Origin: Streptomyces sp. NBC_00425
GTDB lineage: Bacteria; Actinomycetota; Actinomycetes; Streptomycetales; Streptomycetaceae
NCBI RefSeq assembly: GCF_036030735.1
Contig: NZ_CP107928.1
Coordinates: 6,758,001-6,822,000, forward strand
Length of the DNA stretch: 64,000 nucleotides
Direction of reading: 5' to 3'
The notes under the pieces are model-generated. The model saw only the letters and a program-made list of their open reading frames with translations, was not told the origin of the DNA and ran no database searches. This document shows, one piece after another, positions 61,813 through 64,000 of the stretch (position 1 is its first letter; each line of letters starts with the position of its first letter). The position numbers and the translations under genes are program-made.

Positions 61813-63969
61813 TCACCCCGCCGCGTCCCCCTCCCCGAGGGCCAGCCGTTCCTGGAGACGGGCGTGGCGGAACTGGTAGACGGGGCCCGTCGCCCGCAGC
61901 AGGTTGCGGCGGCGGGCGTCCTCCAGGAAGTGCACCAGTCGTACCGGTGTGCCCTCCTCGTAGTGGAGCTGCACGGCCGTGAGGGTGGTGGCGACGGCGA
62001 GGTTGCCGGCGAGGCCACAGGTGGCGCCGGTCCACACCAGGGCCGTCACCCCGAACATCACTCCCTGCAGGGGGGACTGGGCCCAGGCCACGATCGGGCC
62101 GACGTACAGCGCGAGGGCGAGGCCGGTGAGCAGCCCCAGGAAGAGGCGCAGCCCGAGGTGATGGCGCCACACGTCACGCGGTCCCACCGACCGGGTGTCG
62201 AGCACCGAGGGCCGGGAGTGGTTCTCGCGCACCGGGTCGTAGTGGCTGCCCGTTCCCAAGGAGAGGAACGGGGCGCCGGAGACGATCTCGTACCCGCGTC
62301 CGGTGACCAGCACCTCGCTGAAGCCGAGCGGCAGCGTGACCAGATACCACAGCCACCACGGCGGAGCGTCGTCGATCAGCGGCACGACGGGCACGACGAG
62401 ACAGAGCAGGGTGGCGACGAACAGCCACTGCCCGACGCCGGAGCCGACCGTCCTGCGGGTGAAGATGTCGCGCCATCCCGCGCTCGACAGCGGCTGCGGG
62501 ACGTCGAACCGGGCGAGACGCCGGGCGATCGCGTGCCCGCCGGCGACCGCCCCGAGAGCGCCGACGACGGTTGTCAGGGGTGTCGGGCTGACGTTCCAGG
62601 CCATGATCGCACCGGGCGTGCCGCACACCACCGCGGAGACGATCCACACGGCGATCGTCCGGGGCCGCCGGCTCGTCCAGCCGGGAACATGCCACCAGCG
62701 CAGATCACGCGTGCCCTCCTCGGTGAGGCGGGCCGCGATGTGCCGGAGCGTGCGCTCGGCTGTCCTCGCGGAGTAGCGGGGACGGGGGTGCCCGGGACGC
62801 CGTGTGTAGGCGGCGGCCACCGCATGGTCGAGGAGATGGTTCTCCACGGCGCGAGCGGTGGGGAAGCGGGCGGTGTCGAGGAGTTCGTCGACGGGGTCGT
62901 CGTCGCCGTACACGTCGCGCAGCAGGGCGATGGCGAGCGGCCCGGCGAGCGCGGCGGCGAGCGGGTCGGCGAGGGGGGCGGTGAGCGGGTCGGCGAGCGG
63001 GCCCGCGGAGACGGGGCCGGGACCGGTCTCCGACAGAAGCCGCCCGGTGAGCGCCCGCCAGGCGGGCGAGGGAGCGGCAGGCAGCCGGTCGAGCAGGTAC
63101 CCGGCGGCGTCGGCCGGCCGCACGGGCTGGATCTCCAGCGCGAGGGCGCCGCCCAGCCGCGCCTTCTTCGCGGTGAGCACGGCCTCCTTCGCCCGGGACA
63201 CCAGCACCAGCCGGAAGGGCGCCGTCTCCAGCGCGCTGACCATGGCCCCGCGCAGTCTGCCGGTGACCTCGTCGAGTCCGTCCAGGAAGAGGGCGACGCG
63301 TCCCTGTTCGAGGAGCCGCCGGGCGCGGGCCCGGCCGCCCCGCCCGTGGAACAGGGTGTACTGACGGCTGAGCCGGTCCGCGGCCCAGTCGACGGCCTTC
63401 TCCCCGGCGGGGTCCCATCCGTCGAGGGACAGCAGAACGGGGACGGGGACGCGGGCGCGGTCGGCGGCCGAGGGCAGCGCCGCCCGGTGCGCGAGGGCGT
63501 CCAGCAGCAGAAGGACGGCGGCGGCGGTCTTGCCGGCGGCCGGCGGCCCGAGGAGCAGCAGCCGTCCCGAGGCCAGGCCGCCGTAGACGGCGTGCAGTTC
63601 GGTGAGCCCGCCGCCGGCGCGGAGCCCGGCGCGGGTGGTCGGCGCGATGCCGGGCAGGGGACCGAACCGCGTTCGGGCCGCCCCCTCTCCGGTGGCCGCC
63701 ACGACCCGTCCCACGGCCTTGCGCTCACTCACCCGCCACCGCACGGGCAACGGTGAGGGATCTGTCAGCCGCCGCAGCGCGGCCTCCTCCGTCCACTGCG
63801 CGCCGACCACGCGAGCGAGTTCGTCGGCGGCGGTGTCGAGGACGTCCCCGGCGGTGAGGACGGCGTGATGATGGATGACCTGGACGTTGTGGTCGCCTGC
63901 CTGGAAGGCGGCGGGCCCGTGGAAGACGTTGCCGGAGACCTCGGGCCCGCTGCCGCCGGGTTCGGTCAT
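61813..63969 (-). CDS. Membrane NACHT (STAND) NTPase with N-terminal RHIM/PP-like motif
   Basis: 718 aa, complete from ATG 63969 to the stop at 61813. Residues 13-31 read GNVFHGPAAFQAGDHNVQV, a short amphipathic beta segment of the kind seen at the ends of NLR-like proteins. A helical segment (40-80, PSPLPVRWR) follows, then the NACHT NTPase: Walker A GPPAAGKT (141-148), Walker B VALFLDGLDE (225-234) and a later VLVSRAKEA sensor. After about residue 430 there are at least six membrane helices. This fits a signal-transducing ATPase in a defence or cell-death system. The adjacent upstream gene lies outside the window. Confidence 0.86.
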   Translation of the reverse strand: MTEPGGSGPEVSGNVFHGPAAFQAGDHNVQVIHHHAVLTAGDVLDTAADELARVVGAQWTEEAALRRLTDPSPLPVRWRVSERKAVGRVVAATGEGAARTRFGPLPGIAPTTRAGLRAGGGLTELHAVYGGLASGRLLLLGPPAAGKTAAAVLLLLDALAHRAALPSAADRARVPVPVLLSLDGWDPAGEKAVDWAADRLSRQYTLFHGRGGRARARRLLEQGRVALFLDGLDEVTGRLRGAMVSALETAPFRLVLVSRAKEAVLTAKKARLGGALALEIQPVRPADAAGYLLDRLPAAPSPAWRALTGRLLSETGPGPVSAGPLADPLTAPLADPLAAALAGPLAIALLRDVYGDDDPVDELLDTARFPTARAVENHLLDHAVAAAYTRRPGHPRPRYSARTAERTLRHIAARLTEEGTRDLRWWHVPGWTSRRPRTIAVWIVSAVVCGTPGAIMAWNVSPTPLTTVVGALGAVAGGHAIARRLARFDVPQPLSSAGWRDIFTRRTVGSGVGQWLFVATLLCLVVPVVPLIDDAPPWWLWYLVTLPLGFSEVLVTGRGYEIVSGAPFLSLGTGSHYDPVRENHSRPSVLDTRSVGPRDVWRHHLGLRLFLGLLTGLALALYVGPIVAWAQSPLQGVMFGVTALVWTGATCGLAGNLAVATTLTAVQLHYEEGTPVRLVHFLEDARRRNLLRATGPVYQFRHARLQERLALGEGDAAG

Positions 63970-64000
63970 CTCCCCGGCCCGAAGTGGTTCTCCTGCCGGT

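Follow-up and report, generated by a model that had tools for sequence, protein, structure and literature searches.

A two-gene locus of Streptomyces sp. NBC_00425, lying at the end of the 64,000-nucleotide stretch analysed here (the window; positions 6758001-6822000 of a 9.8-Mb single-contig genome), is likely to encode an amyloid-signalling pair of the BASS3 kind (a class of bacterial amyloid signalling motif), in which a membrane receptor would trigger the stacking of a short shared motif and a small partner protein would then attack the membrane. We base this reading on the match to a published BASS3 peptide, the spacing of two glutamines, the motif common to both proteins, the adjacency and overlap of their genes, the co-occurrence of motif and partner across genomes, the co-variation of the two motifs and the predicted NLR-type fold of the receptor; stacking of the two tags is probably how the sensor activates its partner. 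The main features are:

61813-63969, minus strand: receptor gene, a 718-residue NACHT-type STAND NTPase that has a RHIM-like motif at its N terminus and into which six predicted transmembrane helices are inserted
63880-63933, minus strand: RHIM/BASS3-like motif, receptor residues 13-30, GNVFHGPAAFQAGDHNVQ (from alignment, comparison with a published peptide and a motif scan)
63966-64000, minus strand: 3' end of the partner gene, which continues beyond the window to window-equivalent position 64406 and encodes a 146-residue five-helix bundle with the C-terminal motif GNTFHGPTAVQTGDHNRQENHF

Receptor and partner share a RHIM-like motif

A sequence-only reading of the window had described a NACHT open reading frame with a RHIM-like motif at residues 18-31 (GPAAFQAGDHNVQV) and had predicted that an effector carrying the same motif would be encoded just beyond position 64000. 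The open reading frame, which opens with ATG, and its motif were found where described, and so was the effector: directly upstream of the receptor and on the same strand, a partner gene at genome positions 6821966-6822406 (window-equivalent 63966-64406) ends in a protein whose C terminus reads ...GAVTGNTFHGPTAVQTGDHNRQENHFGPGR, its stop codon overlapping the receptor start by 4 nucleotides (ATGA, 63966-63969). The ATG start of the partner was chosen to agree with its homologues, and the frame stays open further upstream. The two motifs share 13 of 21 residues and align with a Smith-Waterman score of 83, whereas the best of 20,000 double shuffles reached 53.

The conserved block around the receptor motif exceeds residues 18-31 and spans about residues 11-30. 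A Q-x-G anchor is found in 47 of the 51 close receptor homologues, where columns -14 to +5 around the core glycine form a conserved island; within these 47 sequences, Q and G are kept in 100%, F in 96% and N in 81% (otherwise S), so that the Q-x-G-x-x-[N/S] core is retained among homologues. The flanking linkers differ in both length and sequence, with the anchor glycine at 0-based index 14 to 86. Three of the four homologues lacking the anchor read FTTG in place of FQxG and the fourth reads QQFG. The proposed resemblance to RHIM stood for this Q-x-G-x-x-[N/S] pattern and only in part for the strict core, given as G-(I,V)-Q-(I,V)-G in PMC7885112, since the partner reads A-V-Q-T-G and the receptor A-F-Q-A-G; therefore, "RHIM-like" fits the motif and "RHIM" does not.

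Comparison with published sequences supports the BASS3 assignment that had been made from the letters, as judged against one published BASS3 peptide and by the glutamine spacing. This peptide, from a Frankia BASS3 effector (Table 2 of PMC8086366), gave infrared spectra termed typical of aggregates. The partner motif aligns with it without gaps (8 of 21 residues identical, VQxGDxNxQxNxF in common), which none of 100,000 shuffles equalled, and the receptor motif shares 6 of 21 residues with it, which 33 of 100,000 shuffles equalled. In addition, Q131 and Q138 of the partner are nearly invariant and lie 7 residues apart, as do Q113 and Q120 of the Streptomyces atratus BASS3 motif, whose proline mutants Q113P and Q120P are reported in PMC9815663 to lose foci.

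The motif and the partner gene occur together

We scanned genome contigs for the receptor family, where the best 80 of 212 relatives gave 79 distinct loci, and searched these with a partner profile built from the helical part only, leaving the motif out. Here the name Bell is a label for the partner family as defined by our own profile. The profile matched all 13 loci whose receptor bears the motif and none of the other 66. The sequence-only reading had staked its case on a neighbouring gene sharing the motif: two copies, partner then receptor, are visible in 12 of these 13 loci, with a single copy in L104 (plus-strand scan). The partner copy of L078 is degenerate, and frames are broken in L081, L088 and L104. 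In the other 66 loci, the motif scan gave two stray matches only, both distant from the receptor, and the N terminus (classified by pattern and hydropathy) has transmembrane helices in 50 loci, a TG-A-A motif in 2, a cyclase-like domain in 2, a second RHIM-like motif in 3 and something else in 6, while 3 do not align there.

Among 392 genomes of the genus, 13 encode a close receptor (E up to 1e-70), and 11 of these have an upstream Bell gene with a matching motif. As for G149 and G391, a small transmembrane protein and the receptor both bear the TG-A-A motif in the former, and an upstream Bell gene is present with broken frames in the latter. The two samples overlap (G032 is L085, G149 is L084 and G391 is L088). 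Changes of motif class hit both proteins together, as in VLNG/VLNG and VQYG/VQYG pairs.

Partner motifs co-vary with receptor motifs

We then compared motifs in 29 receptor-partner pairs, 18 from loci and 11 from listed proteins paired by eye. L078 (degenerate partner), L081, L088/L172 and L104 (broken frames) were left out, as were the duplicates L177 (same record as L085) and G084 (motif strings identical to those of L082) and 4 of 15 eye-matched protein pairs (three duplicates of loci in use, one without an N terminus). With body distances controlled, partner-motif distance tracks receptor-motif distance (partial Mantel r 0.45, p 0.0004), and r stays within 0.39-0.49 in subsets (0.39 without VLNG pairs, 0.48 in 21 non-redundant pairs). 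Cognate motif pairs have a BLOSUM score of 60.5, versus 47.6 for non-cognate pairs.

The strongest co-varying position is the Asn of Q-x-G-x-x-N, which is N/N or S/S in 20 of the 21 non-redundant pairs (11.4 expected by shuffling) and in 30 of the 31 pairs on a tree to which L078 and L081 were restored, with 4-5 changes. Simulated independent evolution of this position gave p 0.00002-0.0017 depending on the rate, uncorrected for choosing 1 of 20 positions; a sign test on it was not significant, its 3-5 independent contrasts being too few to reach 0.05. Speaking against a general matching rule, 10 Bell pairs with other receptors agree at this residue in only about 4 cases (by eye). N and Q ladders are described as stabilising the RIPK1-RIPK3 amyloid and as typical of amyloids of this kind (PMC7885112), so templating would be expected to leave the partners matched at a ladder position.

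The partner is a small helical protein

The earlier reading was right in expecting an effector gene that shares the motif, and its examples of effector domains (TIR, peptidase, patatin) did not apply, the partner being a small helical protein. Its AlphaFold2 model has helices at residues 2-21, 26-38, 42-61, 64-87 and 91-108, followed by a disordered tail that bears the motif, with block means of the predicted local distance difference test (pLDDT) of 84-98 across residues 1-110. Since a structure search with this model gave no convincing fold match, likeness to MLKL/HeLo proteins stays an analogy from the literature.

Bell genes occur in 79 of 246 genomes of the genus (E up to 1e-6). In a scan of 10 neighbours, those of other Bell genes include NB-ARC/WD40, STAND/TPR and ricin-lectin proteins with a similar motif; in L179 and L188, Bell adjoins motif-bearing ricin-type beta-trefoil lectin proteins in which no NTPase domain was matched. 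Some Bell proteins are longer, of about 273 residues (P0084, P0092, P0093, P0096, P0098), with an internal motif and, after it, an additional domain of about 130 residues; P0098, the one scanned, has no Pfam match above cut-off. The genome studied here also holds a second Bell copy (positions 286570-287049; L010:6571-7008, minus strand), whose helical part stops at a TAG codon with the motif EVSGNTCNGPAAFQIGGEQHVHF in frame past the stop. This copy is probably a relic: at E up to 0.01 the genome has no second receptor match, and transposase-like open reading frames lie near it (by eye).

The receptor is predicted to be a membrane-integrated NLR

The receptor body is laid out as follows:

63526-63549, minus strand: Walker A, receptor residues 141-148, GPPAAGKT; G141, G146 and K147 invariant in 61 aligned sequences
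63268-63294, minus strand: Walker B region, receptor residues 226-234, ALFLDGLDE; D230, D233 and E234 invariant in the same alignment
62011-62670, minus strand: six predicted transmembrane helices within receptor residues 434-653, preceding the terminal winged helix (structure model)
61822-61938, minus strand: terminal winged-helix elements, receptor residues 678-716, with conserved GPVYQFRHARLQERL (alignment and model)

The invariance of these Walker residues agrees with the intact NTPase that had been proposed, and alignment and model point to a P-loop NTPase with a nucleotide-binding and winged-helix arrangement. The C terminus had been placed in the membrane; instead, a conserved winged-helix tail comes after the six predicted helices (434-460, 464-489, 505-528, 538-556, 597-630 and 633-653). 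Their best 19-residue hydropathies are, in order, 1.95, 1.36, 2.28, 1.22, 2.16 and 1.48, so that helices 2 and 4, at 1.36 and 1.22, are weak predictions. A Foldseek search with the model put AAA+ proteins on top, with no row below E 0.001; the NLR-type reading of the fold comes from a second alignment of the Foldseek candidates and not from the ranking itself, and in 19 of the first 20 NLR rows this alignment reaches residue 714 or beyond. The model thus predicts an unusual NLR in which six transmembrane helices interrupt an NLR-like NACHT module before its terminal winged helix.

Profile searches add little to this picture. Pfam, NCBIfam and PADLOC gave nothing above cut-off for receptor or partner; the Pfam NACHT model PF05729 does not match the receptor and matches only 2 of 61 relatives at E 0.01. 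In a PDB sequence search, the motif had no match, and the receptor and its profile had only weak ones (E 0.79 or worse). The Pfam matches of the receptor include no C-terminal repeat sensor (LRR, WD40, TPR), the predicted helices standing in its place, and no KAP domain at E up to 10, a range in which the HMMER filters remove most matches above 0.1. The named relatives of receptor and partner are mostly from Streptomyces. Neither a NACHT protein with inserted transmembrane helices nor the present motif in bNACHT proteins is described in the titles and abstracts of the papers listed by our literature searches or in passages of PMC8195603 and PMC7159879, a scope that leaves out Dyrka et al. 2020.

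Relation to known systems

The pair most resembles the BASS3/Bell-NLR signalosomes of multicellular bacteria (Dyrka et al. 2020), as outlined in PMC7889193, PMC8086366 and PMC9815663: adjacent genes for an NLR-type protein and a small helical effector, a BASS3-type core at the N terminus of the receptor and the C terminus of the effector, and an actinobacterial host. It differs in the six predicted inserted helices and the lack of a repeat sensor. Fungal NWD2/HET-S and HELLP systems (PP motif) likewise join an NLR to a neighbouring membrane-targeting effector through a common short amyloid motif (PMC7889193, PMC7885112), but their effector sequences are other ones, NWD2 has WD repeats, and their G-phi-Q-phi-G core is only partly matched here. 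The Q-x-G core is shared with the RHIM of RIPK1 and RIPK3 (PMC7885112), whereas the present pair has no kinase and departs from the strict core. Unlike the animal NLRs NLRP3, NLRC4 and NOD2, the receptor has neither a death-fold N terminus nor LRRs, and carries a predicted, inserted transmembrane module. Membrane segments also interrupt the P-loop NTPase module of KAP NTPases, judging from the title of a paper cited in PMC8195603; here, in contrast, no KAP Pfam match is seen, and the inserted helices follow the NTPase core and precede the terminal winged helix.

One receptor body occurs with different N termini

N-terminal classes were counted among 120 listed receptor homologues of 172 found. 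A BASS3-like N terminus is present in 72, a TG-A-A motif in 8 (7 by pattern, P0178 by eye), a VVQAxSI motif in 4, an N-terminal transmembrane helix in 11, a TIR domain in 10 (9 precomputed Pfam TIR_2 matches, 1 truncated and assigned by eye) and a cyclase-like domain in 4 (label by eye), while 7 are short or other and 4 are fragments. Since TIR, cyclase-like and tag N termini all occur on receptor relatives, one sensor body is found with enzymes in cis or tags in trans, which suggests that a fused enzyme and an amyloid tag can replace each other as the output of the same sensor. The cyclase-like domain (EDRGDxV; by eye) is seen in P0219, P0222, P0223, P0238, L090 and L091, of which P0219 has no Pfam match.

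In L083 and L084 (L020 and L178 are the L084 record), the same receptor body carries the TG-A-A repeat motif, and an upstream gene encodes a small transmembrane protein with TG-A-A motifs. TG-A-A may thus be a second class of trans tag. Its match to the partner exceeds all 300 shuffles in L084 (50 vs 39) and falls below the best shuffle for the segment tried in L083 (33 vs 41). Three receptors (L093, L130, L133) carry a second RHIM-like motif, and only in L130, from Pseudonocardia acaciae, was a resembling partner C terminus seen, and none in L093 or L133. The L130 candidate is a small protein encoded downstream of the receptor relative (L130:8528-8884, plus strand), in reversed order, with the C terminus VNQVHSSVTGKLVQARDIHGNITL; its resemblance to the receptor's RHIM-like N terminus was not significant (score 36, best of 300 shuffles 40).

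Genomic setting

The receptor-partner pair is convergent to a GT87-PAP2 gene, itself present in 49 of 61 genomes searched. The site beside this gene varies, because among 30 fetched GT87-PAP2 loci the 1.5-kb flank holds a receptor in 2 and a thiolase gene in 3. In Streptomyces sp. S501, a mobilizable plasmid of 288 kb carries a complete pair with the 4-nucleotide overlap, annotated as hypothetical proteins and about 6 kb from a Cas3'' gene; of 72,556 plasmid records, 2 hold receptor relatives and 21 hold partner relatives. About 2 kb past the effector gene of the present locus (L009:12460-13074, plus strand; genome 6824459-6825073) is a polymorphic-toxin-like remnant, with a pretoxin HINT piece (below the Pfam cut-off) followed by a DUF5615/PIN-like domain.

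Alternative explanations

Three rival explanations were considered. The shared motif could be a non-amyloid docking tag, making a short beta-strand or disordered contact, with the helical partner serving as an adaptor or regulator rather than a killer. The motif is indeed disordered in both models (pLDDT block means 37-61), and the N-terminal helix of the partner is only mildly hydrophobic (the best 19-residue hydropathy of the protein is only 1.15). We nevertheless regard a docking tag as unlikely: the motif resembles a peptide with aggregate-type spectra (PMC8086366), its two-glutamine spacing equals that of the foci-forming S. atratus motif (PMC9815663), and conservation is focused on Q, G and N/S, as ladder-forming motifs would show.

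Instead of a defence or death system, the pair might also be a membrane switch with a house-keeping or developmental role in Streptomyces, given that it is chromosomal here, that its closest listed relatives are mostly from this genus and that no PADLOC defence profile matches it. Such a role appears quite improbable against its sporadic distribution (13 of 392 genomes), the variable flank of GT87-PAP2, the occurrence of the pair on a mobilizable plasmid near a Cas3'' gene and the TIR domains found at the same N-terminal position in receptor relatives. Lastly, chance resemblance, or low-complexity sequence common to neighbouring frames, would suit a motif that is short and rich in G, N, Q and H, but was rejected, as none of the 20,000 shuffles reached the observed score, motif and partner co-occur (13/13 vs 0/66) and both switch class jointly.

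A model for receptor-triggered motif stacking

We therefore return to a BASS3-type pair, for which the published BASS model (PMC7889193) offers a sequence of receptor oligomerisation, motif stacking, partner templating and membrane attack by the partner. At rest, the receptor would be held in the cytoplasmic membrane by its six helices, inactive and with an unstructured N-terminal motif. A membrane-associated trigger, possibly phage-induced envelope damage, would alter how the winged helix sits against the nucleotide-binding domain, the receptor would oligomerise, and the N-terminal motifs thus gathered could form a short RHIM-like cross-beta stack. This stack would template the C-terminal motif, of the same class, in the product of the overlapping partner gene, and the clustered partner may then insert its N-terminal helix into the membrane and stop or kill the cell, potentially in defence.

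A bolder proposal, which we put forward tentatively and hold to be possible rather than probable, is that the receptor is a membrane NLR with a six-helix module in its activation hinge, so that the state of the membrane would gate the NTPase. Its N terminus would be an interchangeable plug (TIR or cyclase-like in cis, at least two amyloid-like tags in trans), with each trans tag matched residue for residue to its own partner through an Asn/Ser ladder. If this is true, matched tags could let several private amyloid channels run in one lineage without cross-talk. As a compact chromosomal example with one receptor gene in its genome, the pair makes it testable what bacterial amyloid-signalling receptors sense, and since no repeat sensor is seen in the receptor, the transmembrane module or the NTPase part is left as the sensing candidate. 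The partner specificity of short RHIM-like motifs becomes testable as well, since the co-varying positions name exact point mutants.
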